Shown piece after piece: positions 1 through 37,545 of a DNA stretch of 37,545 nt; position 1 is the first letter of the stretch; the number at the start of each line of letters is the position of its first letter. The translations under genes and the position numbers were made by a program. Origin of the DNA: a virus; the IMG/VR virus record IMGVR_UViG_3300044720_000013, positions 1-37,545 of that record. One strand, 5' to 3'. Under the pieces are notes generated by a model. That model searched no databases and had not been told where the DNA came from. It saw nothing but the letters and a program-made list of their open reading frames with translations.

Positions 1-127
1 TTGCCGGCACTGTCACCTCGGGCCCGGTGAACCTACCAAGCCAGACAGCCACCCTCGCCCTCACAGCCGCCCCAGGCTCTCTGCTGGCAGGCGGGGCGAC
101 GGTCGCGGGACAGGTCGCCACTCTGGC
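1..127. repeat. Left copy of 127-bp terminal direct repeat (contig closure overlap)
   Basis: Bases 1-127 are identical to 37419-37545. The repeat lies inside a coding gene and joining the two ends keeps the reading frame open. A length of exactly 127 matches a k-mer size used by de Bruijn graph assemblers, so this is most simply the overlap left when a circular molecule is written as a linear contig, not a physical phage terminus. The unique genome is then 37,418 bases. Confidence 0.95.
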
Positions 128-707
128 GCTGACGGCCGTCCCGGGCTCTGTGTCGGCCTCGAGGAGCATCACTGCCCAAGTTGCCATACTGGCTCTCACA
201 GCGGTACCTGGCAGCGTCAGCACGGGCGGCGTCGCCATCCCGGCGCAGGTCGCCACGCTCGCACTCACCGCAGTCGCCGGGACGATAACGACAGGGCCGA
301 CCAGCATCGCGGCACAGGTCGCCACTCTGGCACTGACGGCCGTCCCCGGCAATCTCTCGGCGGCCGGCGGCACGCAAACCATCACTGCTCAAGTGGCCTC
401 GTTGGCGCTGACCGCGGCGCCTGGCTCGATCACCGCCTCGCGGAGCATCGCAGCAACCCCGGCGACGCTCACGTTGCAGGCCGTGCCTGGCGCCCTGGTG
501 CCCGACACGAGCACGATCGTCGCGGCCACCGCAACACTGCAACTGACAGCGGTACCGGGCACGCTGATCGCACTCGGCGACCCGCCTGTCATCACCGGCC
601 GCCTGACGATGGCCAGAGCTGATCAGGACCGCACGATGTCACGGCCCGATCAGGACCGTCGGATGACGTCCGCGACCGTCGAGCGCACACTGGAGGCAGT
701 CACGTGA
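1..707 (+). CDS. Tandem-repeat fibre-like structural protein, 3' part
   Basis: This is the 3' portion of the gene that begins at 37208; the reading frame (positions 3, 6, 9 and so on) is open from base 1. Across the join the protein is 305 residues. It contains about ten tandem units of 22-25 residues with the core pattern (Q/T)-x-A-T-L-x-L-T-A-x-P-G followed by a Ser/Thr/Gly/Ala-rich linker. The rhythm of a short hydrophobic strand, a PG turn and a polar linker suggests a beta-structured fibre shaft or stacked beta repeats. After the repeats the C terminus changes to a charged segment with two RxDQDRxM copies. It follows two structural genes at the end of the tail/lysis region, so a fibre or surface appendage is the likely role (inference). 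The stop overlaps the next GTG start (GTGA at 704). Confidence 0.75.
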   Translation, partial: AGTVTSGPVNLPSQTATLALTAAPGSLLAGGATVAGQVATLALTAVPGSVSASRSITAQVAILALTAVPGSVSTGGVAIPAQVATLALTAVAGTITTGPTSIAAQVATLALTAVPGNLSAAGGTQTITAQVASLALTAAPGSITASRSIAATPATLTLQAVPGALVPDTSTIVAATATLQLTAVPGTLIALGDPPVITGRLTMARADQDRTMSRPDQDRRMTSATVERTLEAVT

Positions 708-1132: not shown

Positions 1133-1402
1133 TCAGGGCGGAGGAGTGAGCGAGTCCACGAGCTGTTTGCAGATGGCAGCGGCGCATAGACCGACGGTCA
1201 GAGCGACCCCTGCGGCTCCGGCCCATATCCCGAAGGCAGTCCAATCGAAATCGACACTCGCTGATCGGGCGTGGCCGATGTTCGAGGCGAGTGCTCCAGC
1301 GATGAGCAGGACCACGGCAACGAACACCGCGCACGCCGTGCACGTGCTGGCATGCTCATACGGATTGGTCTGGACTTCATCCATTGGCGGGATGTTACTC
1401 AC
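1133..1402 (-). CDS. Small two-helix membrane protein downstream of integrase
   Basis: The product has 89 residues with two predicted membrane helices, about residues 22-42 and 56-80, joined by a short polar linker (ARSASVDFD region). The N terminus is polar and the C terminus carries a short Pro-rich tail. The GTG start overlaps the integrase stop by four bases (GTGA), so it should be co-translated with the integrase and expressed in the lysogen. The family is unknown. A prophage-expressed membrane protein suggests superinfection exclusion or lysogenic conversion, but this is inference. A holin role is less likely because it is distant from the lysin and on the opposite strand. Confidence 0.75.
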   Translation of the reverse strand: MSNIPPMDEVQTNPYEHASTCTACAVFVAVVLLIAGALASNIGHARSASVDFDWTAFGIWAGAAGVALTVGLCAAAICKQLVDSLTPPP

Positions 1403-2229
1403 GTGAACAGTTCGGCGACGACGGCCGCCGCACGGTGCTGCGCCCAGGCCACGTAAGCAGCGGTGGTGCCGGGCGACGCATGACCGAGCAACTCCTGCGT
1501 CATCCGCAGATCATTCCCCGACCGGTTGTAGACCTCGGTGCCATAGCCGTGCCTGAGCTGGTGCCCGGAGGCGATCACCCCACAGTTGTGCATGTGGCTG
1601 CGCAGCAGGTGCGAGACCTTGCCGGCGGACAGCTGCTCGCCGTCATCGTCACGGAACACGGCGCCGTGAGCGGGCATCCCGTGAGCGCGCAACGCGTCGA
1701 TGATCGCAGCCGGCATCGGCTGCACCCTTGGCTTATCACCCTTGCCGTGGGTCACGACGAGGACCGGGGGATCGAGGTGCTCCATGATGTCGCTGACGTC
1801 GAGCGTGGCGATCTCGATACAGCGAAGCCCGGCGTACCCGGCGAGCGCGACCATAGCGCGCAGCTGCTTGGTCGGCGCCTGATCAAGGACGTACAGGAAA
1901 TCCTCGCGTGACACCGGCCGGGGGAGCGAGCGGCGCATCTTCGGCCGCGTCAGCCGCAGCGTCGGGTTGCGTGTCGCCCGTTCCTCGATCAGCGCCCACC
2001 GCCAGAACGAGGCGAGGTGGGAGATGTACGAGTACCTCGAGCGGGCAACGAGTCGGTGTGCGTCGAGCCAGTCGCGCAGCTCGTCGGTCGTGGCGTCGAT
2101 CAGCGGATGGTCGAGCGCGGTTTCACAGCGCAGCAGGATGCTGATCCGCTTGTTGATCGAGGTCGGCATCAGCGACCTTCGACCCATCTCGGCGCGGAAC
2201 TCCCGCAGCTCCATCGACTCGGTCCCCAT
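1399..2229 (-). CDS. int: Tyrosine-family site-specific integrase
   Basis: The 276-residue protein performs phage integration and excision by strand exchange through a covalent phosphotyrosine. Residues about 10-95 form the SAM-like core-binding domain and about 105-270 the catalytic domain. The active-site set is visible: R136 (GLRCIEIATL), a beta-hairpin Lys at K163 or K165 (GKGDKPR), H223 and R226 (HQLRHGYG), H250 (LLGHAS) and nucleophile Y259 (TTAAYV). The ATG at 2229 is chosen because a GGAGGG Shine-Dalgarno lies just upstream and the conserved fold begins there; upstream in-frame sequence is not protein-like. It is short for a phage integrase and lacks an obvious N-terminal arm-binding domain, giving a Xer-like two-domain architecture. 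It sits downstream of the repressor on the same strand and overlaps the next gene by GTGA. Confidence 0.95.
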   Translation of the reverse strand: MGTESMELREFRAEMGRRSLMPTSINKRISILLRCETALDHPLIDATTDELRDWLDAHRLVARSRYSYISHLASFWRWALIEERATRNPTLRLTRPKMRRSLPRPVSREDFLYVLDQAPTKQLRAMVALAGYAGLRCIEIATLDVSDIMEHLDPPVLVVTHGKGDKPRVQPMPAAIIDALRAHGMPAHGAVFRDDDGEQLSAGKVSHLLRSHMHNCGVIASGHQLRHGYGTEVYNRSGNDLRMTQELLGHASPGTTAAYVAWAQHRAAAVVAELFT

Positions 2230-2318
2230 GGCCACCCTCCATGTTCCGTCCCCCGTTTCGCTCTGATTATCGCCTCGACCTCCTCGGTGGTTAAGTCTGG
2301 TTTCTGTAAGGATTTGAC
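2230..2318 (-). other. 89-bp gap between repressor and integrase; candidate attP neighbourhood
   Basis: This non-coding stretch separates the repressor stop from the integrase start. It contains the integrase Shine-Dalgarno (GGAGGG on the minus strand, next to 2230-2240) and a locally more AT-rich segment around 2290-2318. attP is often beside int, but no tRNA-like 3' end or clear core repeat could be confirmed here, so this marks a place to look and is not a site call. Confidence 0.25.
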
Positions 2319-2600
2319 TCATGCTGCGACAAGGACCTGGTCTGTAAACAGGTAATTCTCCGTACCGCCCCCACTCTCTGCGATGAAGAACTCGATCGGG
2401 TAGCCCGTCAGTTCTGAAATCCGGTCGAGTTCGAGCGCGGACGGTCGATGATTGTTGTTCTCCCAACCCGCTACCGCCGCTCTGCTCTTCTTGACGCCGT
2501 CAGCAAGGTCGGATTGTTTCCAACCCATGTCCTCGCGTGCCTTACGTATCCGCTCACCGAGGCTGTAGACCGCGGTCCTTTGTTCGCTCATGTTCGACAT
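2319..2600 (-). CDS. XRE-family (Cro/CI-type) helix-turn-helix repressor
   Basis: This 93-residue DNA-binding protein has an HTH_3-type domain at about residues 13-70 (LGERIRKAREDMGWKQSDLADGV, then SRAAVAGWENNNHRPS, the recognition helix and following turn, then LELDRISELTG). It has almost no C-terminal dimerisation domain, unlike lambda CI, and there is no sign of a self-cleaving peptidase, so induction would not follow the LexA/CI cleavage route. The start at 2600 or the internal ATG at 2591 removes poorly protein-like upstream sequence. Neither has a good Shine-Dalgarno, so near-leaderless translation is possible. It faces away from the excisionase-like gene across an 85-bp control region, the usual place for the immunity repressor. 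Confidence 0.85.
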   Translation of the reverse strand: MSNMSEQRTAVYSLGERIRKAREDMGWKQSDLADGVKKSRAAVAGWENNNHRPSALELDRISELTGYPIEFFIAESGGGTENYLFTDQVLVAA

Positions 2601-2617
2601 GATGCAGGGTCTGACGG

Positions 2618-2626
2618 AATATAGCA
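2618..2626 (-). promoter_or_regulatory. Extended -10 promoter element for repressor/integrase operon
   Basis: On the minus strand the sequence reads TGC-TATATT, an extended -10 (TGnTATATT), about 18 bases upstream of the repressor ATG at 2600. A second similar element, TGC-TATTGT (2631-2639), lies 13 bases further upstream, making a TTGCTAT direct repeat. No good -35 is visible, as expected for an extended -10 promoter. Confidence 0.5.
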
Positions 2627-2648
2627 AGAAACAATAGCAAACTTCTGC

Positions 2649-2678
2649 TTGACTTCGGAAGCCGACATATGTCAATGT
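2649..2678 (+). promoter_or_regulatory. Candidate rightward early promoter
   Basis: TTGACT (2649-2654) is a good -35 match. A weak -10 (CAATGT, 2673-2678) lies 18 bases downstream. The first rightward gene starts at 2686 with no Shine-Dalgarno, so a leaderless transcript beginning at or near the ATG is plausible. The palindrome at 2664-2673 sits in the spacer, where a bound repressor would block polymerase. Confidence 0.35.
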
Positions 2679-2685
2679 TCGACCC

Positions 2686-2913
2686 ATGCCGAAGTCCAAC
2701 CCGCACCTGTTGTCGCCCGGAGACGTCGCACTGATCCTCCGCAAGAGCACCGCCACCATCAATCGATGGGGCGAGATGGGCCTACTCGGCGAGGTGACCA
2801 TGACCGCAGGTGGCCAGCGTCGATACGGGCGAGAAGCCGTCGAGGCACTCCTGCGCAGCCAGGCCGCTGAGCTGCAGGCCGAAGTCCAGCGCCTCGAAGC
2901 CGCCGCGTCGTGA
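2686..2913 (+). CDS. MerR/BldC-like winged-helix protein, probable excisionase or Cro-like switch protein
   Basis: The 75-residue protein has a MerR-like winged helix-turn-helix: LSPGDVALILRKSTATINRWGEMG (residues 9-32) is the helix-turn-helix and GGQRRYGREAVEALL (about 43-57) the wing and closing helix. A short Ala/Glu-rich helix follows. This fold is shared by AlpA/Xis-type excisionases and small MerR-like regulators. As first gene of the rightward operon, divergent from the repressor, it could act as excisionase for the tyrosine integrase, as the anti-repressor side of the switch, or both. No Shine-Dalgarno precedes the ATG, so a leaderless start is suspected. Its end overlaps the next GTG start by four bases. 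Confidence 0.85.
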   Translation: MPKSNPHLLSPGDVALILRKSTATINRWGEMGLLGEVTMTAGGQRRYGREAVEALLRSQAAELQAEVQRLEAAAS

Positions 2914-14268: not shown

Positions 14269-14575
14269 CGTGCTCGTGCTCGCAGCCGACGACCTCCGAA
14301 TCGACTACCACCGATCTGTGCAAGCTCCGGATGGAACGCTGGCGGTCGAGCTCGAGGCCGCAGCCGAGATGACCCGCTACCACTGCCTGATGGTGCGACG
14401 CACAGATGGTCAGTGGTTCGTGATGTGCGAAAACCTCGAGCTGGCCCTACCGCTGCTGCCGACTCTTGGCGGCTGGCACTGGTCGTACATCCAAGGCAAG
14501 TTGCGCGACAACGGCCGCACATCGATGGCGATGACGCTGCTGATGCAGCACGTCCACGACACGGTGAAGCCATGA
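14258..14575 (+). CDS. Hypothetical early protein
   Basis: The product has 105 residues from ATG 14258; two in-frame GTG codons at 14252 and 14255 are alternative starts. GAAGG about ten bases upstream supports 14258. It contains TRYHCLMVRRTDGQWFVMCENLELALPLLP and WHWSYIQGKLRDNGR, an alpha/beta arrangement without a known motif. It overlaps the previous gene by 11 bases and the protease start by four. Confidence 0.65.
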   Translation: MKSDVLVLAADDLRIDYHRSVQAPDGTLAVELEAAAEMTRYHCLMVRRTDGQWFVMCENLELALPLLPTLGGWHWSYIQGKLRDNGRTSMAMTLLMQHVHDTVKP

Positions 14576-15279
14576 CCATCATCGCCTCGATCGTCATCCC
14601 AGAGGAAGACAACCTGCCACACCCGCTCGGCCTCGCCGGCTTCGGTCACGACCCGCGCAACTTCGACTTCCGCGCCCTCGTCCGCCCGGGCCCTCGCACA
14701 ACGCTCCCGAACCATCCGTGGTACACGTCCCTCGTCCTCGACCAAGGCTCCGAGCCGCGCTGCACCACCGAAGCCGCCGTCGGCCTCCTCGAGACGAACC
14801 CGAACAGGCTGCAGTACACACCCGACCGCTTCCGCTTCGACGAACCCGCCGAACGGCAGGCCGCCTACCTCGCATGGCAACGCTTCGACCCGTGGGCGAC
14901 CGTCCAGCACGACGGCTCCACTATCGACGCACCGTTCCGTGGCCTGCGCGAGCTCGGTGTGATCTCGGGTTGGCGGTTCCTGTTCGGAGAGGCCGAGGTC
15001 CGCGAGTACGTCACCTGGTACGGGCCCGTCGCGGTCGGCACCGTGTGGCGCTACGACATGTTCTACCCCCACCCGGACGGCTCGTTGCCGGTGACCGGAC
15101 CCGTGGCGGGCGGGCACGCCTACCGGCTGGTGCAGTACTCGAAAGCGCGTCACGCGTACCGGGTCGTGAACTCCTGGGGGAAGGGTTGGGGGCAGAACGG
15201 GCGGGCATGGATCCGCGACGTCGACCTGGCGGCGCTGCTCTCTGCTGATGGTGAGGCCGTCACCGTGGCGGTCGCATGA
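14572..15279 (+). CDS. Papain-like (C1-type) cysteine peptidase
   Basis: The 235-residue protein keeps the complete papain set: oxyanion Q58 and nucleophile C64 in LDQGSEPRCTTEAAV, catalytic His H182 in GGHAYRLVQY, and N200 in VVNSWGKGWGQNGRAWI. The spacing matches a small C1 domain, and there is no long inhibitory propeptide or signal peptide, so it should work in the cytoplasm without secretion. The C terminus extends into a hydrophobic beta strand. It sits at the end of the early operon, far from the head genes, so capsid maturation is not the obvious role. Cleavage of a host regulator, restriction component or phage protein is plausible. Confidence 0.9.
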   Translation: MTIIASIVIPEEDNLPHPLGLAGFGHDPRNFDFRALVRPGPRTTLPNHPWYTSLVLDQGSEPRCTTEAAVGLLETNPNRLQYTPDRFRFDEPAERQAAYLAWQRFDPWATVQHDGSTIDAPFRGLRELGVISGWRFLFGEAEVREYVTWYGPVAVGTVWRYDMFYPHPDGSLPVTGPVAGGHAYRLVQYSKARHAYRVVNSWGKGWGQNGRAWIRDVDLAALLSADGEAVTVAVA

Positions 15280-16424: not shown

Positions 16425-16928
16425 ATGACGGGCCGCTTCTCCGAAACCTTCAAGCAGGCGCTGTCGAGCTACATCACGTACCTGCAACTCGTTCTCGAGC
16501 TACAGGACTGGCGCATCACACTCCGAGGCGAATACCCCGACGGCGGCGACGCGGCCGCCTCAATGAAATGCGTCTACGGCCAACGCATCGGCGAGCTCTC
16601 ACTCGCCCGAGAGTTCTTCACCTTCGAACCAGACCGGCAACGCCACTACATCGTCCACGAACTCGCCCACATCCTCACCGACGGATGCGACAACGTCATC
16701 GAAAACGGGATCGACGAGATCCTCGGCAAACCCGCATGGGTCGTCCTCCGAGAAGCATGGCGAGTCCAAGTCGAGTACCTCACCGACCAGGTCACCTACA
16801 TCGTCGTCGACCTCGTCACCGGCATCGGCCGCCACGACCGGCTGTGGGAGGACGTCCTGCGAGCCGAACGCGACGAGCTGCCCCTACCGGATCCCGAGAC
16901 CATCGTCGTCGAACTGTCGGCGCCATGA
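16425..16928 (+). CDS. HExxH zinc metallopeptidase-like protein
   Basis: The 167-residue protein has HYIVHELAHILTDG with H78-E79-x-x-H82, the zinc-binding gluzincin-type helix, and a downstream acidic helix (EAWRVQVEYLTDQV) that could provide the third ligand. The fold resembles small phage metallopeptidase-like proteins related to the SprT or ImmA/IrrE style, though I cannot assign the family. No signal peptide is present. A GAGG ribosome site precedes the ATG. It begins a new transcription block and overlaps the HNH gene (ATGA). Confidence 0.8.
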   Translation: MTGRFSETFKQALSSYITYLQLVLELQDWRITLRGEYPDGGDAAASMKCVYGQRIGELSLAREFFTFEPDRQRHYIVHELAHILTDGCDNVIENGIDEILGKPAWVVLREAWRVQVEYLTDQVTYIVVDLVTGIGRHDRLWEDVLRAERDELPLPDPETIVVELSAP

Positions 16929-17197
16929 GGATGCCACCACGCTCGACCACACAGCGCGACAAGGACCGAGCCACGATCAGACGCGGCAAACCCGCATGCG
17001 CACTCTGCGGCCAACCAATCGACTACACGCTGCCCCACCTCGACCCGTACGAGTACGTGGTCGACCACATCATCCCCCTCCACAGAGGCGGACCCGACCG
17101 GCTCCACAACAAACAAGCAGCACACCGGAAGTGCAACGCAGCCAAAGCCGGCCGCCTCGTCGCCCCCATCGTCCGACGATCCGGCACCCTGGCATGA
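16925..17197 (+). CDS. HNH endonuclease (small, packaging-associated type)
   Basis: The 90-residue protein has CALC (C25, C28), YVVDHIIPLHRGGPD (D47, H48), N62 and HRKCNAAK (H67, C70, N71), the HNH beta-beta-alpha-metal core. In many HK97-like phages a small HNH protein lies next to the terminase and assists cohesive-end cleavage. Here it lies one gene before the probable small terminase. The start is the ATG in the ATGA overlap. Confidence 0.9.
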   Translation: MRMPPRSTTQRDKDRATIRRGKPACALCGQPIDYTLPHLDPYEYVVDHIIPLHRGGPDRLHNKQAAHRKCNAAKAGRLVAPIVRRSGTLA

Positions 17198-17302
17198 ACA
17201 CGGTGGGGGAGTGACCCCTCGTCCGCGCTGTCTCCGCCGCTTCCGTTCAGGCGATTTACCCCCCCGCTAGACCCCCTCCCCCCTTCGAAGGAGGTAGCCG
17301 AG
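17198..17302. other. 105-bp C-rich intergenic region upstream of second HNH gene; candidate cos neighbourhood
   Basis: The + strand carries three C-runs (17259-17265, 17272-17276, 17278-17283), giving a possible G-quadruplex on the minus strand. Next to them CCTTCGAAGG (17282-17291) is a perfect palindrome overlapping the AAGGAGG ribosome site. A short GGGG-AGTGA-CCCC hairpin lies at the start. Non-coding DNA between HNH and terminase genes is a common site for cos, but no overhang can be read from one contig. Confidence 0.35.
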
Positions 17303-17995
17303 GTGAAGATTGCCTGCTCGTGCGGAGAGTGTGAGCGGTGCCGATATGAGACGGCCCCCCGCGTTCGGTGCTCTGTCTGCGGCGAGCCGACTGGTTACCT
17401 CGTCGGTCTTGTAGATCAGGCGACGCACCCGAAGTGCAAGCACGGAATGCAGGCCGCCTATGCCAGCGGTTGTCGCTGTGACGAATGCGTCCAGGGACGA
17501 TCGGAACGGAACGCCAAGGAGTATCAACGTAAGCCCAGGGTTCCCTGTGCGAAGTGTGGCGGTCCGACCGGTTACCGGCTCGGGAAGATCTCGTCAGCGT
17601 TCCATCGTGAGTGTCGGCCAATTCCAGACCACGGAACGCGAGGCCGATACAGGGACCACGCATGTCGGTGTCAGGTGTGCCGCGATTGGCGCGCAGACGA
17701 CATGAGGCGGTTTGCTGAGCGGCGTGGCCGGTTCAGCATCTCAAGGGCCGATCGAAGAGCGTTGTACGAACGCGACGGCTGGACGTGTCAACTCTGCTTT
17801 GAGCTGGTCGACAGATTCGCGCATCACCTCGACCCATGGGCGCCGACTCTTGACCACATCATTCCCCGGTCCGTGGCAGTCGACGATTCTGCGTCGAATC
17901 TTCGGACGGCTCACCGTTGGTGCAACATGATTCTCAACGACGGACGGAAGTACGACGTCTCGTTCTTTGCCCCGCCCGAGAGACTGATCGCATGA
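17303..17995 (+). CDS. HNH endonuclease with duplicated zinc-ribbon N terminus
   Basis: The 230-residue protein starts at GTG 17303 behind AAGGAGG. The C-terminal HNH domain has CQLC (C162, C165), LDHIIPRS (D184, H185), N199 and HRWCN (H204, C207, N208). The N-terminal half holds two copies of a Cys/His module: CSVCGEPTGY...HPKC...HG...CRCDEC (about 23-62) and CAKCGGPTGY...HREC...HGTRGRY...CRCQVC (about 82-126). These probably bind zinc and DNA, making this a modular, possibly homing-type, nuclease. It precedes the small terminase with an ATGA overlap. Confidence 0.88.
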   Translation: MKIACSCGECERCRYETAPRVRCSVCGEPTGYLVGLVDQATHPKCKHGMQAAYASGCRCDECVQGRSERNAKEYQRKPRVPCAKCGGPTGYRLGKISSAFHRECRPIPDHGTRGRYRDHACRCQVCRDWRADDMRRFAERRGRFSISRADRRALYERDGWTCQLCFELVDRFAHHLDPWAPTLDHIIPRSVAVDDSASNLRTAHRWCNMILNDGRKYDVSFFAPPERLIA

Positions 17996-18231
17996 GTCGC
18001 CTGACCGAATTAGCGGCGATACGAGACGGATTGCGGAGCCGCATGTCCGCATGCACGTCGGATCAGAACTACGCCGTCATGTGTCGTCTCCTGGTCGACG
18101 TGCTCAGGCAGATCGACGAAATGGCCCCGGCTAAGACCAAGACGAAAGCGACGGGTCTGAGTGAATTCGAGAAGCGTCTCCGCGACCGTCAGCAGGGAAC
18201 CAAGACTCCGCGTCGCACCAAGAGCGGCTGA
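17992..18231 (+). CDS. terS: Probable small terminase subunit
   Basis: The 79-residue helical protein contains LTELAAIRDGLRSRMSACTSDQNYAVMCRLLVDVLRQIDEM and a basic tail (LSEFEKRLRDRQQGTKTPRRTKSG). Short actinophage small terminases have this helix-then-basic-tail appearance and lie directly before terL. It would recognise packaging sites and recruit the large subunit. The large terminase starts within its last 71 bases. The assignment rests mainly on position. Confidence 0.6.
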   Translation: MSRLTELAAIRDGLRSRMSACTSDQNYAVMCRLLVDVLRQIDEMAPAKTKTKATGLSEFEKRLRDRQQGTKTPRRTKSG

Positions 18232-19633
18232 AACCTACGGCGATCTCGCCGGCCAGTTCGCCGCAGACTATGGGTTGCTGCCGGACGACTGGCAGCAACT
18301 CATTCTTGATGATTGGCTGGGCGAAACGAACGGCCGATGGGTATCGCTCACTTGCGGTCTGTCCGTCCCTCGCCAGAACGGCAAGAACGGCGCTCTTGAG
18401 GTGCGAGAGCTGTTCGGCATGGTCGGTCGCGGTGAGAAGATTCTGCATACCGCCCACCAGGTGAAGACGGCGCAGAAGCACTTCCGTCGGCTCAAGCATT
18501 TCTTCGGCAAGCAGGTCAACGATCCTGACGCCTGGTTTCCTGAGCTGAACGCGTTGGTAGGTGAACTGCGCAACGTGAACGGGCAGGAGGCGATCTACCT
18601 GACCAACGGTGGGTCGGTCGAAATTGTGGCCCGGTCACAGGGATCTGGCCGCGGATTTACAGTGGATGTGATCGTCTGCGACGAAGCACAAGACATGAGC
18701 GACGACGACCTCGAAGCATTGCTGTCGACGTCGTCTGCGGCGCCTGGCGGAAACCCCCAGTGGTTCTTCACCGGCACGCCGCCCGGCCCGAAGGTCAACG
18801 GCGAAGTGTTCGGTCGTGTTCGCGATGAGGCACTGGAGGGCAAGTCGAAGCGGTTGTCGTGGCTTGAGTGGTCATGTCCGCCTGACGTGGATCTCGATTC
18901 ACACGAGGCGTGGCATGAGGCCAACCCGGCTCTCGGCACCAGGTTGCAGTTTGACGTGGTCGAGGGAGAGCGGGCCCGGTTCTCCGATGAAGGTTTCGCC
19001 CGGGAACGTCTGGGCATGTGGACCGTTTCCAGCTTGGCTCGTGTCATCGATGCAGATTCGTGGGCGGTCGTGGCGGATCCGGCTTCGATGGCGATCGATC
19101 AGCTCGCTCTCGGAATTTCTGTGGCACCGGATCGTTCGGTGTCGTCGGTCGGCCTTGGCGGGTTGCGTGCTGACGGTCTCGGTCATGTGGAGTTGGATGA
19201 GCATCGAGCAGGCACGGGATGGGTGGTGCCGTGGGTGAAGGGCCGCCTTGAGCGCAACGCGATCCGAGCGGTGGTGATGGATGCGTTGTCGCCGGCGACG
19301 TCGTTGCTCGAGGAGTTCGCCAAGGAGAAGATCCGGGTGACGGTCACGACGGGCGTTCAGTACGCGAACGCTTGCGGCAACTTCTATGACGGTGTGATGG
19401 ATGCCACGTTCAGGCACACCGATCAGCCGCAGGTGAACGTGGCGCTGTCGGTCGTCGGCAAACGTCCGATGGGGACGTCGGGTGCTTGGGTGTGGAACAA
19501 GAAGACGACGGATGCTGACATCACGCCTGTCGATGCGGAGACGTTGGCGTTGTGGGGCTCGACGGCGAAGAGCGTGAAACGTCCCGGCGGCAAGGGCCGA
19601 ACCGGTTCGGGTCGGCGGGCGACCGTTCTGTAG
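18161..19633 (+). CDS. terL: Terminase large subunit (packaging ATPase and nuclease)
   Basis: The 490-residue protein has the large-terminase Walker A LSVPRQNGKNGALE (about 68-80, PRQNGKN variant), Walker B VDVIVCDEAQD with the catalytic Glu, and a coupling segment (FFTGTPPGPK). The C-terminal RNase H-like nuclease is indicated by LALGISVAPDRSVSSVGLGG (metal Asp), AVVMDALSPATSL and FYDGVMDATFRH. It packages DNA into the prohead. The GTG at 18161 is the only upstream start that retains the conserved N-terminal region, giving a 71-bp overlap with the small-terminase-like gene. An internal later start is not attractive. Confidence 0.95.
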   Translation: MNSRSVSATVSREPRLRVAPRAAETYGDLAGQFAADYGLLPDDWQQLILDDWLGETNGRWVSLTCGLSVPRQNGKNGALEVRELFGMVGRGEKILHTAHQVKTAQKHFRRLKHFFGKQVNDPDAWFPELNALVGELRNVNGQEAIYLTNGGSVEIVARSQGSGRGFTVDVIVCDEAQDMSDDDLEALLSTSSAAPGGNPQWFFTGTPPGPKVNGEVFGRVRDEALEGKSKRLSWLEWSCPPDVDLDSHEAWHEANPALGTRLQFDVVEGERARFSDEGFARERLGMWTVSSLARVIDADSWAVVADPASMAIDQLALGISVAPDRSVSSVGLGGLRADGLGHVELDEHRAGTGWVVPWVKGRLERNAIRAVVMDALSPATSLLEEFAKEKIRVTVTTGVQYANACGNFYDGVMDATFRHTDQPQVNVALSVVGKRPMGTSGAWVWNKKTTDADITPVDAETLALWGSTAKSVKRPGGKGRTGSGRRATVL

Positions 19634-19645
19634 ATCAGGAAGGCG

Positions 19646-21061
19646 GTGGCGTTTGTGGCAGTGATCGAGCGCAGCATCGCCGTCGAGGGCCTCGACGAAG
19701 AGGAGAACGACACAGCCAATGTGCTGCTCGAATTGTTGCGCGCCAAGCAGCGCCGCAATCTGCTGCGAGCTAGCTACTACGACGGGAAGCGGGCGATCCG
19801 ACAGATCGGCACGGTCATCCCTCCGCATTACTACCGGCTCGGGATCGTGCTCGGCTGGTCGGCGAAGGCGGTCGACATCCTGGCACGACGCTGCAACCTC
19901 AACGGCTTCGTGTGGCCTGACGGCGACCTGAACTCGGTCGGGTTTCGCGACGTGTGGGATGCCAACAACTTCTCCGCCGAGGCATCATCGGCGCTCGTGT
20001 CGTCACTGATCCACGGCGTCTCGTTCCTGGTGAACACCACGGGCGACGAGGCGGCCGGCGAGGTCGGGTCGTTGATCCACGTCAAGGACGCAATGAACGC
20101 AACCGGGGAGTGGAACCCGCGCCGCCGGCGCCTCGACAACCTGTTGTCGATCATCCGCCGCGACGACAAAGGCCGCCCGATCGAGTTCGTCCTCTACCTG
20201 GACGGCGAAACGGTGTCGGTGATCAAAGACGGCAAGTGGCAGGTCACCGACCGTTCAACGCACCCGTGGGGCGTGCCGGTCGAGGCGCTGGTCTACAAAC
20301 CGCGTGCCGGCCGCGCGCTCGGATCGTCGCGGATCTCCCGGGCAGTCATGTCGCTGCACGACCAGGCGCTGCGGACGGTGATCCGCATGGAGGGACATGC
20401 AGACGTGTTCTCGTTCCCGGAGATGTGGCTGCTCGGCGCCGACGAGTCGATCTTCAAGAACATCGACGGCACCACCAAGGCGTCGTGGCAGATCATGCTC
20501 GGCCGCATCAAAGCCATCCCCGACGACGAAGAGGCCGCCGAGCCACGCGCCGACGTCAAGCAGTTCCGGGCTTCGTCGCCCGAGCCGCACATCGCCCAAC
20601 TCAAGCAGCAGGCGCAGCTGTTCTCCGGGGAGACATCGATTCCGTTGACATCTCTCGGTGTGTCGGACATGTCGAACCCGACGTCGGCCGATTCCTACAT
20701 CGCGTCGCGTGAGGATCTGATCGCCGAGGCCGAAGGGGCGACCGACGACTGGTCGCCGGCGATTCGACGCTGCATGGCGAGGGCGTTGGCGATCGCCAAC
20801 AGCGACACAGCGGTACCCGACGCGTTCCAATCGATCGAGGCGAAGTGGCGGTCCCCCGTGTACCTATCGAGGGCTGCGCAAGCCGATGCCGGCGCCAAGC
20901 AGCTCGCCGCCGTGCCGTGGCTCCGCGAGACCGAGGTCGGGTTGGAGCTGCTCGGGTTGGATGAGCAGCAGATCCGCCGTGCGTTGGCCGATCGTCGCCG
21001 GGCCGCCGGACGGGCCGTACTCGCCACCTTGAATCCGAACCCCAATGCCAACACCGGATGA
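19646..21061 (+). CDS. Portal protein (SPP1 Gp6-like)
   Basis: The 471-residue protein fits Phage_prot_Gp6/SPP1-type portals: helical N terminus, YYRLGIVLGWSAKAVDILARRCNLNGF, the central alpha/beta core (SIIRRDDKGRPIEFVLYLDGETVSVI), GSSRISRAVMSLHDQALRTVIRMEGHADVFSFPEMWLLG, and the clip/stem region ending in NPTSADSYIASREDLI. It forms the dodecameric ring for DNA entry and tail attachment. AGGAAGG (19637-19643) lies close to GTG 19646; the in-frame GTG at 19655 is an alternative with longer spacing. It overlaps the MuF-like gene by 17 bases. Confidence 0.92.
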   Translation: MAFVAVIERSIAVEGLDEEENDTANVLLELLRAKQRRNLLRASYYDGKRAIRQIGTVIPPHYYRLGIVLGWSAKAVDILARRCNLNGFVWPDGDLNSVGFRDVWDANNFSAEASSALVSSLIHGVSFLVNTTGDEAAGEVGSLIHVKDAMNATGEWNPRRRRLDNLLSIIRRDDKGRPIEFVLYLDGETVSVIKDGKWQVTDRSTHPWGVPVEALVYKPRAGRALGSSRISRAVMSLHDQALRTVIRMEGHADVFSFPEMWLLGADESIFKNIDGTTKASWQIMLGRIKAIPDDEEAAEPRADVKQFRASSPEPHIAQLKQQAQLFSGETSIPLTSLGVSDMSNPTSADSYIASREDLIAEAEGATDDWSPAIRRCMARALAIANSDTAVPDAFQSIEAKWRSPVYLSRAAQADAGAKQLAAVPWLRETEVGLELLGLDEQQIRRALADRRRAAGRAVLATLNPNPNANTG

Positions 21062-22288: not shown

Positions 22289-23185
22289 ATGGCCACCCTG
22301 GCTACCTCCAGCCTTACCATCCCCACCCAACTACTCGATCCCTGGCTCGGCCAGATCGTCAATGGATCGGCTGTTGCCACCCTGTCGGATTCGCTCCCGA
22401 TGAAGTTCGGGTCCGGTTCGACGATGACGTTCAGCATCGGTGAAGCCGAGTACGTCGGTGAAGGCGCCGCCAAGGGCGCATCCACCGTGACACCGACGAC
22501 GAAGACCGTCACCCCGAAGAAGTTCCACAAGACCCTCCGGTTCAACGAGGAAGTGTTGTGGGCCGACGAGGATCATCAGATGGGTGTCGTGCAAGACATC
22601 CTCGATCAGATCGCTCCGTCGCTCGCACGTGCGCTCGACTACGGCGTGTTCCACGAGATCAACCCGACTGGTGGCGCAGTCGTCGCCGCGATGAACGGCG
22701 GCCTCACGGACACCACGAACCTCGTCGAGTACGTCGCAGCCGACAAGCCCTACGTCAGCCTCGACGCCGCAGATGCGCTGATCCTCGCCGACGGGTACGT
22801 TCCCCGCGACATCGCACTCGCCCCGACCTACGCCGGAAAGTTCACGGCGCTGCGCGGGACGTCAACGGAGGCAAGGCTGTACCCGAACCTCGCGCTATCC
22901 ACAGCCGTGTCCGAACTCGACGGCCACCGCGCGTCGGTGTCCAACACGGTCAGCGGCGCCGGCGTCATCGCCGTCGACACCAAGGTGCTCGCCTTCGTCG
23001 GCGACTTCAGCGCGATCCGTTGGGGCGTCCAGCGTCAGATCAACCTCGAAGTCATCAAGTACGGCGATCCCGACGGCGGCGGCGACCTCAAGCGCCAGAA
23101 CCAAATCGCCATTCGCTCGGAGATCGTCTACGGGTGGGGCATAGCACAGCTAGACGCCTTCGCAAAGGTCCATGACCTCGTCTAG
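22289..23185 (+). CDS. Major capsid protein, HK97 fold
   Basis: The 298-residue protein has the expected length and a probable E-loop and P-domain helix: GSGSTMTFSIGEAEYVGEGAAKGASTV, then KTLRFNEEVLWADEDHQMGVVQDILDQIAPSLARALDYGVFHEINP, and an A-domain with WGVQRQINLEVIKYGDPDGGGDLKRQNQIAIRSEIVYGW. The N terminus is short, so no long delta domain is fused; a separate scaffold is encoded upstream. AAGAAAGAGAG precedes the ATG. It self-assembles into the icosahedral shell. Confidence 0.92.
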   Translation: MATLATSSLTIPTQLLDPWLGQIVNGSAVATLSDSLPMKFGSGSTMTFSIGEAEYVGEGAAKGASTVTPTTKTVTPKKFHKTLRFNEEVLWADEDHQMGVVQDILDQIAPSLARALDYGVFHEINPTGGAVVAAMNGGLTDTTNLVEYVAADKPYVSLDAADALILADGYVPRDIALAPTYAGKFTALRGTSTEARLYPNLALSTAVSELDGHRASVSNTVSGAGVIAVDTKVLAFVGDFSAIRWGVQRQINLEVIKYGDPDGGGDLKRQNQIAIRSEIVYGWGIAQLDAFAKVHDLV

Positions 23186-27176: not shown

Positions 27177-30100
27177 GTGAAAGCCATCAGCGAAAAAGGC
27201 TTCTCCGTCCGGTTGACCGCCAACGTGGACTCGTATGTCGCGGCGATGGCCAAGGCCCGCGGCGCGACCGAAACCATGTCGTCTGCGTCTGCTGCGAACA
27301 TGGTCAAGGTCGGCGGGCAGATGCAGAAGCTCGGCGGGCAAATGTCGCGCTACGTCACCCTCCCCGTCGTCGGTGCCGGTGTCGCGGCGATCAAGATGTC
27401 GTCAGATTTCGAGTCGGCGTTCGCTCGCATGCAAGGCCTTGCCGGTGTCACCGCCGACGAGGTCGACGGGCTCAAGGCGTCCGTGCTCGACCTGGCCGGT
27501 CGCACCGCGCAAGCACCGCAAGCTCTGGCCGACGCCCTGTATCAGGCGTCGTCGTCCGGTCTCAACACCGCTGACGCGATGGCTGCCGTCGAGGTCGCCG
27601 CGAAGGGCGCCGCTGCCGGGATGGGTTCCGCCGCAGACATCGTCGGCCTCGTTGCCTCAGCGGTGGCTTCGTATGGCAAGGCGAACATCACCGCAGCGCG
27701 GGCCACCGACATTCTCACCTCCGCGATCCGCGAGGGCCGTGCCGATCCGGCAGAGCTCGCCGGGACCCTCGGCCGGGTGTTGCCGATCGCCAACGCGGTC
27801 GGGATCTGCTTCGAGGAAGTCGGCGGTGCGACCGCCTACCTGTCGAACATCATGGGTGACACCAACCGGTCCGTGACGAGCCTGCAGGGCCTCCTCGTCA
27901 AGCTCGCCTCCCCAACGGCACAGGGGCGTCAGGCGCTTGCCGACATGGGAACCTCGGTCACCGAGTTGAAGGCGGCGATCGATCAGGACGGTCTCCTCGG
28001 CGCTTTGGATCTGCTCAAGACCCACGGCTTCGAGGGCAACTCGCAAGCGATGACCCAACTGTTCGACGACATCGAAGGCCGCCAAGGTGCGCTTGCTCTG
28101 ATGGCCGACGAATCGGGAACCCTGGCGGCGACGATGGACAAGGTCGCCAACTCGGCCGGATCACTCGATCAGGCGTTCACGGTCGCCGCCGACACCAGCG
28201 GCTTCAAGATGAAGCAGGCCTGGACCGATATCCAGGTGGCGTTGATCAAGGCCGGCGATGTGATCATGCCGATCGTCTCCAACGTTGCTGGGGCGATCGC
28301 CGGGCTTGCCGAGACGTTCTCCAGCATGCCTGCACCGGTGCAGGCGATCGTCATCGCCTTCCTCGGTCTGGTCGCTGCTGCGGGTCCGTTGCTGGTCGTC
28401 GGCGGTTCGTTGATCAAGAACTTCAACCTGATGAAGACCACGTTTACCGGGACTGGTGCAAAGATCTCGGCCGGGTTCGGGCTGATGGCTGTCGCTGGCA
28501 CCGCTGCGCTCTATCTGCTGAACAGCCACCTCGAAGAGGTCGCCCGCACCAAGGCGTTCGACAAGGCCCGGATCGACCTGTTCATCCAAGGTCTCAAAGA
28601 TGGCGCCAGCGCCGCCGACACGTTGAACAATGCGCTGTCGTCGACCGACGAGTTGACGTTCATCGATCCCTCGTCGGGCAACGTTGCCTCGTTCGCTGAC
28701 GAGCTCAGCCGGGCCGGGATCACATTCGACGACTTCCAGAAGCATCTCCACGGGACCAAGGAAGAGTTCCAGGCGTGGGTGTCCACGGCGGGTGTGTTCG
28801 GCAAGGACGCCGGGGTCGAAGGCTCCAGGCTCAAGCTCGACGACATCAACCACCTCTACAACGCCGGCATCCAGATCATCGACCAGTACAGCGCCGCCGT
28901 ACAGCAGAACACGGACGAGACCTTCGCTCATGGCAAAACGCTCGACGGTGAGCGCCACGGGCTCGATTCCGTCAAGACCGCGACCGAGGATTTGACGAAG
29001 GCCAAAGGTGAACTTGCTGATGTGCCGCCGCCGACCGCTGACGAGGTAGCGGCGATCCAGGCCGTCACCGACGCCGTCAATCGGCAGGCGAAAGCCTTCC
29101 AGGACGATCTCGATGCGCAGATGGCGCTCATCGATTTCGCGAGGCGTGCCGCCGACGCCCAGTACGCGCTCGCCGCCTCGACGGATGACTACAACCGGTT
29201 CCTTGAGGAGCTGCCCGACAAGTTGAAGGAGATCAACAAGTCGAAGGACTCCGAAGCCGAGAAACTCCGCCAGGTCAACGCCTTGTACCGCGACGGTTCG
29301 GGACTCGCCGCGAAGCTCGCCGATGACGTTGTCACCGCCTACGACGACGCCGCCAACGGTGCGATGACCGCCAAGGACAAGGGTGACCTGTGGCGCAACT
29401 CGATGCTCACCTCCGCCGCCGCGGCGGCCGGTCCTGTTCGTCAGTCGATCCTCGACTACGTCCTAGCGGTCAACAAGGTGCCCGAGGAGAAGAAGACGGC
29501 GATCATCGCCGCCGTCGAAGCCGGCGACCTGGCCACCGCTGTCGCCCTGCTGGATGGTGCGTCTATGACCCGCACGGCCGAGATCCACGCCGACGCCGAT
29601 CAGAAGTCCGTCGACAAGGCGCAGGGGAAGTTGGACGGTCTCCAGGACCCGCTCCACGCCAAGCTGATCGTCACCGCCGACACCTCAGGAGCGAACGCCC
29701 AGATCCGGTTGATGCTCGCCCGCGTCGGCGTTCTGAACTACAGCGCATCGGGTCGCTTCGTCGACCACCCGATGATCTCCATGCTCGGAGAGGGCGGGCG
29801 ACCAGAGGTCGTGCTGCCGTTGTCGAACGCTGCTCGGATGAGTGCACTGTTGTCCGACTCGCGGGTGTCGGGCCCGATTCTGTCGGCGCTCGGCGGGGTC
29901 GGCTCTGCTGAGGGTCGTACCGTGAACCTGACGCACATGTCGATCCCGTCGACATCGGCCGGGCCCACAGCGTCGGTCATCGAGGCGGTCACCTCTGCGA
30001 TTGTTCTATCGGGGAACATTGCCGAGGACGCGCAACGCGAAGCCGAGGCTGCAACAGCGGCGCAGGACAAGTTGATGCAGCGAATGTTTCAACGTGACGC

Positions 30101-31043
30101 TCTCTCCTACGCGCAGTATCACGACTATCTGGCGAAGCGCAAAGAGGGGATGGTGCAGTACTCCGACGACGAGCAGGCGTTGTTCGACCAGATCCAACAA
30201 CTCGACCAGAACGAAGCCCGCGCTCGCGAACGTGACGCCCAGATCCAGACGGACATGGCCGACCGGATCCAGAAGTATCTCGCAGACACCAACCAGATCT
30301 CACTCGCCGACTACCAGGCCTACCTGTCCGGGCGCCGCGATTCGTACCAGGTTTACACCGACCAGTGGTTCGCTCTCACGAATCAGATCGCCGAAGCGCA
30401 GCGGCAGATAGATCAAGCCGCGGCAACGGCGACGCAGGCCGTCTTCAAGCAGGCCGACGCTGTCAAGACGCTGGCCGATGCGACGCAGGCCAACCAGGAA
30501 GCTGCTGCCGCGTTCAATGAGGCCGGCGTGAAGGTGATGACCACCGCGGCGGACCGCAACGCGACCCAGCAGGATCGCGACACTGCCGCCGCAGACTACG
30601 AACGCTCGGCGGTCAACCTGGCCGCCACCGCGTACAACATCGCCGATGCCATCGCCAACGACCGCGGGTTGCTGGACGGGTCCGTCGAGTGGGCGCGGTT
30701 CATGCGCGAGCGGCTCACGGCTGACAGCGTCTGGAATCACGCCAACGGTCGAGACAACGTCGCCAACGCCGTCGACCGGCTCCTCCTCGGCATCCCAGCG
30801 TTCGCCGCCGGCGGCTATGTGCCGGCAACACCGGGGGGTCGCATCATCCGCGTCGCCGAGGGCGGTCAGGGCGAGTACATGACGCCGGCGAACAGGATGC
30901 ACGCCATGTCCGGCGGCGGCCAAGGCTCGGTCTACGCCCCGACGTACAACATCTCCATCGGTGGGGCGATCGACCGGCCCGGGGTCGCCCGCGAGATCCG
31001 TGAAATCCTGGATGAGGACAACCGCCGCAACGGACGCGTCTGA
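27177..31043 (+). CDS. Tail tape measure protein
   Basis: The 1288-residue protein is the longest product and sets tail length. Residues about 60-350 match the TP901-type tape measure core (MSSDFESAFARMQGLAGVTADEVDGLKASVLDLAGRTAQAPQALADALYQASSSG...AKGAAAGMGSAADIVGLVASAVASYG). Hydrophobic helices follow at about 380-425. Two C-terminal GG...P...GEGGxxE motifs (about 858-880 and 1212-1240) flank a coiled-coil region that carries two related helical units. GTG 27177 has its Shine-Dalgarno (GAGGGG) immediately adjacent, an unusually short spacing. The stop shares a base with the next ATG. Using about 0.15 nm per residue, a tail near 190 nm is expected. Confidence 0.92.
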   Translation: MKAISEKGFSVRLTANVDSYVAAMAKARGATETMSSASAANMVKVGGQMQKLGGQMSRYVTLPVVGAGVAAIKMSSDFESAFARMQGLAGVTADEVDGLKASVLDLAGRTAQAPQALADALYQASSSGLNTADAMAAVEVAAKGAAAGMGSAADIVGLVASAVASYGKANITAARATDILTSAIREGRADPAELAGTLGRVLPIANAVGICFEEVGGATAYLSNIMGDTNRSVTSLQGLLVKLASPTAQGRQALADMGTSVTELKAAIDQDGLLGALDLLKTHGFEGNSQAMTQLFDDIEGRQGALALMADESGTLAATMDKVANSAGSLDQAFTVAADTSGFKMKQAWTDIQVALIKAGDVIMPIVSNVAGAIAGLAETFSSMPAPVQAIVIAFLGLVAAAGPLLVVGGSLIKNFNLMKTTFTGTGAKISAGFGLMAVAGTAALYLLNSHLEEVARTKAFDKARIDLFIQGLKDGASAADTLNNALSSTDELTFIDPSSGNVASFADELSRAGITFDDFQKHLHGTKEEFQAWVSTAGVFGKDAGVEGSRLKLDDINHLYNAGIQIIDQYSAAVQQNTDETFAHGKTLDGERHGLDSVKTATEDLTKAKGELADVPPPTADEVAAIQAVTDAVNRQAKAFQDDLDAQMALIDFARRAADAQYALAASTDDYNRFLEELPDKLKEINKSKDSEAEKLRQVNALYRDGSGLAAKLADDVVTAYDDAANGAMTAKDKGDLWRNSMLTSAAAAAGPVRQSILDYVLAVNKVPEEKKTAIIAAVEAGDLATAVALLDGASMTRTAEIHADADQKSVDKAQGKLDGLQDPLHAKLIVTADTSGANAQIRLMLARVGVLNYSASGRFVDHPMISMLGEGGRPEVVLPLSNAARMSALLSDSRVSGPILSALGGVGSAEGRTVNLTHMSIPSTSAGPTASVIEAVTSAIVLSGNIAEDAQREAEAATAAQDKLMQRMFQRDALSYAQYHDYLAKRKEGMVQYSDDEQALFDQIQQLDQNEARARERDAQIQTDMADRIQKYLADTNQISLADYQAYLSGRRDSYQVYTDQWFALTNQIAEAQRQIDQAAATATQAVFKQADAVKTLADATQANQEAAAAFNEAGVKVMTTAADRNATQQDRDTAAADYERSAVNLAATAYNIADAIANDRGLLDGSVEWARFMRERLTADSVWNHANGRDNVANAVDRLLLGIPAFAAGGYVPATPGGRIIRVAEGGQGEYMTPANRMHAMSGGGQGSVYAPTYNISIGGAIDRPGVAREIREILDEDNRRNGRV

Positions 31044-33206: not shown

Positions 33207-34397
33207 TTGGCTGTCCAGCGCGCACCATGGCTCGAGCCACATGATCGCTTCGAGGGCGTCGGCGCGCACGAATTGAATCCCAGGTATTCCCACGTCGACG
33301 GCGGCGGATTCGACGAGCAGCTGACGGTCAGCCGGCGCACGCTCCCGGCGCTCGTCAAGGCCCAGCGACGGCTGACGCTCACCCGTCCACTCGTCAGGCT
33401 GCTCGGCCTGGTCCCGCAGCTCGACGGGATGGACGGGGCGCATTACCAGTTCGATCACGGCAAACCGGACCTGCGGGTGATGCGCGATGCCGGGCTGTGG
33501 TGGATCGGTTGGAAGGTGTCGCAGTCGACCGGGTATGTCGACCCGACGTTCGCTCAGATCCGCGAGGAATGGCTCGACTTCGAATGCCGGTTCCCGTACC
33601 ACTGGCTGTCGTCGACCACCGACCCGATCGCCCAGGCCGACTGGTATCTCAAGCAACTCAACGAGCTCCGCCCGGGCGAGGCCGTCATGCTGGATATCGA
33701 GGAGGCCGGGGACACCGTCGACAAAGCGTTGGCATTCTTCGAACGCACCGAGGAGTACACCCACCGCCCCGGCGTCGGCTACTCCGGGATCTATGTCGCC
33801 GGCGGCACGATTTGGAAGTCGCCCGAGCTGCGCATGTCGAGGTACGGCCGGCGGCCATTCACCGTCGCCGCCTATGTGACCGAGGCGAACCTGCGGGCCC
33901 GGCTCGCCGCGACCCACTCGCCGGATCCGGACGCGTGGCAGTACTCGAGCAACGGCCCGGTGCCCGGCATCGTCGGCCGCTGCGACATGGACATGGTCTT
34001 CGACAAGCCCGCATTCCAACTGGCATGCGGCTCGATCGCAACCCCAACCCCTCACCCGCTACCGGAGGACGACATGATCGAACTGCGATCCAACAAGGAA
34101 GACCGCGTCAACCAGTACGGCGGCGTCGAGAAGGCCGGCGAGATGATCTTCGCCATCGGCGACTTCAAGCGCAACATCAGCGCCAAGGAACGCGACGAGC
34201 GGTTCCCCAACGTCCCGCTCAGTTCGCCGTTGTCGAATGCTGTGCTCGACACCATCCCCGACGCCTCATCCGGCGGCACCGTCGACGCAACAGCGCGGGC
34301 CGCCGTCGCCCAGCTGAACGACGCCGTCGGTCGCACCGGTCAGGTCATCGGCGACATGCAGAAAGGTCTCGGCGCGGCCGCCGAAGCCAGAGCCTGA
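33207..34397 (+). CDS. GH25 lysozyme (muramidase), endolysin or tail lysin
   Basis: The 396-residue enzyme starts at TTG 33207 behind GAGGTGA. Residues about 70-270 form a GH25 domain: QLDGMDGAHYQFDHGKPD (nucleophile-side Asp), VSQSTGYVDPTFAQI, LDIEEAGD (D163, E165), GYSGIYVAGG and WQYSSNGPVPGIVGRCDMDMV. It cleaves the MurNAc-GlcNAc bond of peptidoglycan. An N-terminal 70-residue extension and a C-terminal 110-residue extension (IELRSNKEDRVNQYGG...) carry no recognised wall-binding repeat. Followed by four membrane proteins it is the likely endolysin, though its place after tail fibres leaves a tail-lysin role open. The stop shares a base with the next ATG. Confidence 0.88.
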   Translation: MAVQRAPWLEPHDRFEGVGAHELNPRYSHVDGGGFDEQLTVSRRTLPALVKAQRRLTLTRPLVRLLGLVPQLDGMDGAHYQFDHGKPDLRVMRDAGLWWIGWKVSQSTGYVDPTFAQIREEWLDFECRFPYHWLSSTTDPIAQADWYLKQLNELRPGEAVMLDIEEAGDTVDKALAFFERTEEYTHRPGVGYSGIYVAGGTIWKSPELRMSRYGRRPFTVAAYVTEANLRARLAATHSPDPDAWQYSSNGPVPGIVGRCDMDMVFDKPAFQLACGSIATPTPHPLPEDDMIELRSNKEDRVNQYGGVEKAGEMIFAIGDFKRNISAKERDERFPNVPLSSPLSNAVLDTIPDASSGGTVDATARAAVAQLNDAVGRTGQVIGDMQKGLGAAAEARA

Positions 34398-36188: not shown

Positions 36189-36653
36189 GTGGCGACCGGT
36201 CATTGGTTCACGAACAGGGGCAAGCAGCTCCTCCTGCAGGGGGCGTGGGATGACAACGCCGCGACGCTCATACGCGTCGGCCTGCTCGTCGGCACCCAGC
36301 CCGCCGCCGCCGACACTGCCGTCGAGGTCGCCGACCTGAACACGGTCAACGACCTCCTCGTCACCGCCGGAGCGACGGAATGCACCGTGGGCGGCTACGC
36401 CCGCCAGAACCTGTCGCGCACGAACGCGGCCGAGGATGACGCCAATGACCGCGTCAATATTGACGCTTCCGACGTCAGCTTTGGTGCGCTCGCAACGGGG
36501 CAGACGATCATCGGCGCGTTCGTCTATGACGCATCGACGGACACGAACGACACGACCCGCCTGTTGATCTCGGTCGATTGGTTCACGGCGGGTGTGCCGA
36601 CCAACGGTGGCACGATCAACTACGGCATCGCCGACCTGTACAGGGCTGCCTGA
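36189..36653 (+). CDS. Phage structural protein (tail or capsid appendage)
   Basis: The 154-residue protein starts at GTG 36189 four bases after the holin stop. It begins ATGHWFTNRGKQLLLQGAWDD and continues with a beta-sandwich-like pattern (TLIRVGLLVGTQ...LSRTNAAEDDANDRVNIDASDVSFGALATGQTIIGAFVYDASTD...RLLISVDWFTAG), a style common in phage structural appendage proteins. It shares a base with the next ATG, so the two are co-expressed. Confidence 0.72.
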   Translation: MATGHWFTNRGKQLLLQGAWDDNAATLIRVGLLVGTQPAAADTAVEVADLNTVNDLLVTAGATECTVGGYARQNLSRTNAAEDDANDRVNIDASDVSFGALATGQTIIGAFVYDASTDTNDTTRLLISVDWFTAGVPTNGGTINYGIADLYRAA

Positions 36654-37204
36654 TGCCATACCCGCGCACACCACTGCTGCCGATGGGCACCGCCGACGGC
36701 CCCGCAGTCACCACTCCCGCATCGCTCACCGACGCCACCCCGCTGCCGGCCAACGAGATCCCCGCCCACTTGCTACAGATCGGCGGCAAGCTCTACACGA
36801 CAGCGGTCGGCAGGTTCACATCGACCGCCACGCCCGGCACCCTGACCATCGGGCTGTACCTGGCCAAACCCGCAGTCGCCATCGGTTCGGCCGTGCTCCT
36901 CGTCGCCTCCGCCGCGCTCGTCCCGCTGGCATCACAGACGAACAAGACCTTCAAGGTGGAGTTCGAGGTAGAGGTGATATCGGTCGGCGCTGGTGGCGCT
37001 GGTGTTGGCCAAGTTCGTGCAATCGGTATCGCCTTCGGCGTTGTTGCAGCCGGATCAGTTGATCTGATCCCGGCGACAGCGCCGATGGCCGCAGTGTCGA
37101 TCGACACGACGTCGTCGCAGCGGGTGCTGATCGGCCTCACCCCGTCGGTGACGACCGGGAGCGTGACCATCCACACGATGGACACCGAATACTCAGGCAA
37201 CTGA
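36653..37204 (+). CDS. Phage structural protein with beta-rich fold
   Basis: The 183-residue protein has a Pro-rich start (PYPRTPLLPMGTADGPAVTTPASLTDATPLPANEIP) and a C-terminal beta domain (LTIGLYLAKPAVAIGSAVLLVASAALVPLASQTNKTFKVEFEVEVISVG...VSIDTTSSQRVLIGLTPSVTTGSVTIHTMDTEYSG). No family was recognised. It precedes the repeat-rich fibre-like gene by three bases, so a fibre or appendage complex is plausible. Confidence 0.7.
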   Translation: MPYPRTPLLPMGTADGPAVTTPASLTDATPLPANEIPAHLLQIGGKLYTTAVGRFTSTATPGTLTIGLYLAKPAVAIGSAVLLVASAALVPLASQTNKTFKVEFEVEVISVGAGGAGVGQVRAIGIAFGVVAAGSVDLIPATAPMAAVSIDTTSSQRVLIGLTPSVTTGSVTIHTMDTEYSGN

Positions 37205-37207
37205 CCG

Positions 37208-37545
37208 ATGGCCGGCTTCCCGGCGGCGCCGCCACGCAACTCCAGCCCCCGCGACCGCAGGGCCGAAGCGCCGATCAGCCGTCTGGTCGGCGCCAGCCCA
37301 CCGGCGCAAGATCTCGGCAGCCAGACAGCGACCCTGACGCTCACGGCTGTACCGGGCACGCTCACCGCCGGCAGCGTCAACCTGCCATCTCAGGTGGCCA
37401 CGCTGACATTGACTGCTGTTGCCGGCACTGTCACCTCGGGCCCGGTGAACCTACCAAGCCAGACAGCCACCCTCGCCCTCACAGCCGCCCCAGGCTCTCT
37501 GCTGGCAGGCGGGGCGACGGTCGCGGGACAGGTCGCCACTCTGGC
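37208..37545 (+). CDS. Tandem-repeat fibre-like structural protein, 5' part
   Basis: The gene starts at ATG 37208 with a charged, Pro/Arg-rich N terminus (APPRNSSPRDRRAEAPISRLVGASPP) and then enters the first repeats (SQTATLTLTAVPG, SQVATLTLTAVAG, SQTATLALTAAPG). The reading frame continues from 37545 into base 128, ending at 707, for 305 residues in all. The N-terminal 30 residues probably attach it to the virion and the repeat array makes a shaft. Function is inferred from sequence pattern and neighbours. Confidence 0.78.
   Translation, partial: MAGFPAAPPRNSSPRDRRAEAPISRLVGASPPAQDLGSQTATLTLTAVPGTLTAGSVNLPSQVATLTLTAVAGTVTSGPVNLPSQTATLALTAAPGSLLAGGATVAGQVATL
37419..37545. repeat. Right copy of 127-bp terminal direct repeat
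   Basis: Identical to bases 1-127. It lies in the 5' half of the repeat-rich fibre-like gene that starts at 37208. Removing one copy restores a single uninterrupted reading frame, which supports circular closure. Confidence 0.95.

Follow-up and report, generated by a model that had tools for sequence, protein, structure and literature searches.

A 127-base end repeat, almost certainly left by assembly, in a complete temperate phage genome with predicted cohesive ends

The window analyzed here is the complete IMG/VR virus record IMGVR_UViG_3300044720_000013, a DNA stretch of 37,545 bases that begins and ends with the same 127 bases. This repeat is almost certainly a leftover of the assembly software, produced by closing one complete temperate phage genome of 37,418 bases. 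We hold with high confidence the joint reading of the data, in which a k-mer overlap (k = 127) flanks a complete temperate actinophage-like genome with a cos site near 17247 and 3'-cohesive ends. The ends of the virion DNA are probably located about 17 kb inward, at the predicted positions 17247-17249, rather than at position 1. The window represents an ordinary new temperate actinophage-like tailed phage of a familiar type.

The end overlap and the gene split by it

Bases 1-127 and 37419-37545 are identical, as the first-pass annotation had reported, and no other overlap length fits among those from 10 to 4,999 bases tested. The chance of such an identity is about 1e-71 given the composition of the window. 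The repeat was found solely at the two ends of the record. The longest exact word common to the overlap and the remaining genome has 18 bases, and out of register nothing resembles the overlap by more than 64%; thus, the match of the ends is not a product of the visible repeats found in this region, which a large k keeps apart. After closure the right copy is superfluous, and removal of one copy gives a genome of 37,418 bases. Searches of IMG/VR for a contig spanning the exact join, or for one containing a 33-base piece of the overlap, found none.

The join lies inside a gene encoded on the plus strand. The 5' part of this gene (37208..37545) begins with an ATG located 3 bases past the stop of the gene at 36650-37204 and is open to the contig end. 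The 3' part (1..707) is open from the contig start, is read in frame from base 3, and has its stop at 707, overlapping the start of the next gene (704-1030) by 4 bases. Joined, positions 37208-37418 and 1-707 form 918 bases encoding 305 amino acids without an internal stop. Both ends of the gene that had been described as missing are therefore present and flush with the neighboring genes, and the gene and its operon are intact over the join. The continuity of the reading frame had been derived previously from a distance of 237 bases; this arithmetic is not reproducible as worded, but the continuity itself was confirmed by direct translation. Taken alone, it is weak evidence, because identical 127-base ends necessarily keep the frame. 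The tight fit on both sides, together with the gene order conserved across the join (see below), is stronger evidence.

The split gene contains about ten imperfect repeats of approximately 69 bases, with visible units approximately 64-75% identical. The encoded repeats, also about ten, have 22-25 residues each (xVATLxLTAVPGxL...; units like QVATLALTAVPGSVSTGG). The 234-residue portion located within the window was modelled from its single sequence as all-beta (mean pLDDT 77), and a structure search with this portion gave no fold match at E <= 0.001. No relatives of the repeat protein were found in PHROGs, Pfam, phage records, IMG/VR, or the 41 related records. The repeats and the location among the late genes suggest a fibre or other structural role.

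The length of the overlap

Assembler overlaps were evaluated using contigs of a different phage group. No end overlaps were found in 28 larger related contigs or in the whole-contig relatives, so these were unusable as a control for k-mers and microviruses were taken instead. Microviruses have circular genomes that lack terminal repeats, and thus any overlap at the ends of their contigs is technical. In total, 79 microvirus contigs from the same collection were analyzed, with overlaps counted if exact and at least 20 bases long. Such overlaps were found in 28 contigs, with lengths including 55, 99, 121, 123, and 127 bases, as well as others. The value 127 is a usual top k in SPAdes-type assemblers.

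The suggestion of the first-pass annotation that the overlap is an assembler k-mer is supported by the microvirus contigs and by published end repeats of k length. Peaks of overlap length at 55, 77, and 99 bases were attributed to k-mers that remain after an assembler breaks a circular template at a random position (CheckV paper; PMC8116208), and in a gut-phage study k-length repeats originating from sequenced concatemers were classified as a technical artefact (PMC8008677). Like these closed metagenomic contigs, the window was opened at an arbitrary point and carries an exact repeat at its ends, the length of which is odd and k-like. The published repeats have 55, 77, and 99 bases, whereas that of the window has 127; no other difference was found (PMC8116208; PMC8008677). 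For this assembly, k = 127 is an inferred value. A de Bruijn assembler would have cut a closed cycle of its graph somewhere arbitrary, in this case within the repeat-bearing late gene, and the k-mer overlap would have remained at both ends.

Gene content, gene order, and the predicted cos site

Genes for an integrase, a repressor, and an excisionase were found alongside head and tail genes, as is characteristic of temperate tailed phages. The tyrosine integrase is encoded on the minus strand at 1399..2466 (PHROG integrase, 3.8e-29; Pfam Phage_integrase, 7e-19). The repressor is on the same strand at 2319..2801 (PHROG transcriptional repressor, 2e-12); its listed open reading frame overlaps the integrase gene, and the true start is probably further in. 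The excisionase-like gene (2686..2913; PHROG excisionase, 6.6e-6) is on the plus strand, as are the HNH, terminase-region, portal, major head, tape measure, and endolysin genes given below. An HNH nuclease gene at 16895..17197 (start approximate; Pfam HNH, 8e-10) marks the predicted right virion end, and its product has 37.5% identity to that of the last gene of Rhodococcus phage Sleepyhead (MK967380). A small gene at 17992..18231 occupies the position of a terminase small subunit and may have this role; no Pfam match was found for its product, and tblastn matches (40-58% identity) are located directly upstream of terL in the relatives. Genes for the terminase large subunit (18161..19633, start approximate; PHROG, 4.8e-70), portal protein (19646..21061; PHROG, 3.3e-125), major head protein (22289..23185; PHROG, 5.5e-27), tape measure protein (27177..31043; PHROG, 7e-52), and an endolysin of glycosyl hydrolase family 25 (33207..34397; PHROG, 8.6e-14; Pfam, 5e-12) follow. 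Additionally, a peptidase-like gene (14413-15279; PHROG 16701, 8e-27) is located among the early genes and has a relative in the matching neighborhood of one related contig (G002). No tRNA or Rfam family was found in the window.

For mapping of the virion ends, 45 related IMG/VR contigs ending no more than 1,500 bases upstream of terL were collected. Ends of 25 of these 45 contigs lie within 16 bases of an A/T-C5-7-G motif, against 0.05 expected from the background density; in many, the end is exactly 12 bases ahead of the C-run. Some of the contigs belong to phages closely related to one another and are only partly independent. Starts of contigs L011, L014, L016, L017, L020, L025, L028, L030-L034, L036, L037, L070, L080, L081, and others are piled up at this motif. 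To judge from these sequences, this pile-up upstream of terL is a natural map of the left cos end in the relatives. In the window, the only copy of the motif with a long C-run (TTTACCCCCCCG) is found at 17255-17266, in the gap between the end of the HNH gene (17197) and the start of the next gene (17303). When aligned by the C-run, the sequences put the predicted left virion end at 17247-17249, with the start AGGCGAAATACCCCCCCG of L014 opposite AGGCGATTTACCCCCCCG of the window; the predicted cos region covers 17247..17266. The right end could not be mapped in the same way, because contigs stopping near the HNH gene were too scarce. A second HNH endonuclease gene (17303..17995; PHROG HNH endonuclease, 4e-17) separates the cos-like site from the terminase genes and looks like an insertion; in most relatives, the distance from that site to terL is no more than a few hundred bases.

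The terminase is from a family that has cos members, an HNH gene adjoins the terminase region, and the cos-like motif is present at the expected place, as for phages with 3'-cos ends. The packaging genes, this motif, and the pile-up of the ends of relatives point to virion DNA that is linear and cohesive-ended; the position of cleavage and the overhang are predictions. Fixed 3'-cohesive ends of HK97 type, supported by PhageTerm, are described for two Pahexavirus phages of Cutibacterium (PMC12945031). In the window, the terminase and the HNH nuclease would cut concatemers at cos near 17247, generating linear DNA whose 3'-cohesive ends would anneal upon infection, and the integrase would then permit lysogeny. 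The contig passes unbroken through the site at 17.25 kb, so cos ends were joined in part of the sequenced DNA. Such joined ends, in replicating circles, concatemers, the excised form, or annealed ends, would lead to closure of the contig, which is not expected for an integrated prophage alone. The description of the genome as closed and circular thus applies to the assembly, which reflects joined copies in the sequenced DNA, but not to the virion.

The relatives of TerL in cultured phages are mostly those of actinophages. TerL of Sleepyhead is 53% identical to that of the window, and the two genomes share a circular order of terminase, head, tail, lysis, integrase (minus strand), repressor, excisionase, and HNH at the right end. 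Unlike the window, Sleepyhead has 43.9 kb, few of its further genes match by sequence, and no relative of the repeat gene was found there. Among the papers searched, none dealt with its genome ends. In the Cutibacterium phages (Pahexavirus), TerL is approximately 41% identical and terL is likewise near the left end of the record; these genomes have 29 kb, and the two phages of PMC12945031 have no lysogeny genes, in contrast to the window with its integrase, repressor, and excisionase.

Read from the predicted cos site, the order in the window is second HNH, the small gene at the terminase position, terL, portal, head, tape measure, tail, and endolysin, followed by the repeat gene with the join, integrase (minus strand), repressor, excisionase, early genes, and HNH. 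In the linear deposit of Sleepyhead, terL is found at 0.5 kb, the integrase (minus strand) at 28-29 kb, and the HNH gene at 43.5 kb. In the related contig G016, which has 41.6 kb, terL is likewise at 0.5 kb, an integrase (minus strand) occupies 28.5-29.0 kb, and direct reading of the translation shows an HNH-like stretch near 40.6 kb. The region corresponding to the join is continuous DNA in both, and the join is therefore supported independently of the overlap; with few genes in common, and these distant, this comparison supports the order and is not an alignment across the join. The exact overlap, the restored gene, its tight fit to the neighbors, and the conserved order together uphold the earlier statement that the genome is complete at 37,418 bases.

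Alternative explanations and consequences

An exact repeat at both contig ends would also be produced by a physical direct terminal repeat, as in T7-like short ends, with virion DNA starting at base 1. Such a terminus would split one gene that has its start at one end and its stop at the other, both flush with the neighbors; the ends of relatives are located upstream of terL, 17 kb away, and none of the 28 larger related contigs has an end repeat, making this reading extremely improbable. Headful (pac) packaging of circularly permuted DNA without fixed ends, for which the overlap would still be a k-mer artefact, is unlikely. Permuted genomes easily yield closed contigs, and the window is closed while no related contig is, but the terminase family includes cos members, and the ends of relatives pile up at a motif that the window has in the expected gap. 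That the repeat represents attL and attR of an integrated prophage excised at its ends is hardly credible: the integrase gene is near the beginning of the window, as in prophages, but an att repeat is expected beside the integrase, whereas the observed one sits within a late gene and stops precisely where the contig does, and no host-like flank was found in the window.

The location of the break deserves separate consideration. If the break were random, its position inside the 918-base repeat gene would be a coincidence of approximately 2.5%, which counts against the k-mer explanation. Opening of the contig within a gene that carries some ten repeats of approximately 69 bases could mean that identical repeat copies were collapsed at a graph branch, with a true genome slightly longer than 37,418 bases. 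This is very unlikely, as it requires an exact duplication of more than 127 bases, improbable among units this diverged (approximately 64-75% identical), and the overlap shares no exact word longer than 18 bases. It is equally improbable that the opening reflects a graph branch caused by a repeat number that varies in the population, as in an expanding and contracting fibre-like gene. The preferred reading thus remains that of a k-mer overlap on a complete cos-type genome.

With 37,418 bases regarded as the full genome and the split gene as unbroken, the absence of a gene carries meaning. Among the relatives, G016 (L179-L181; 41,646 bases) starts at the cos-like site, has the HNH-like gene near its far end, and has no end repeat. 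By its sequence, G016 may be a linear cos genome present in full, of a kind that end-repeat tests would miss. Related contigs that start at the cos-like site and seem linear may likewise be complete genomes.
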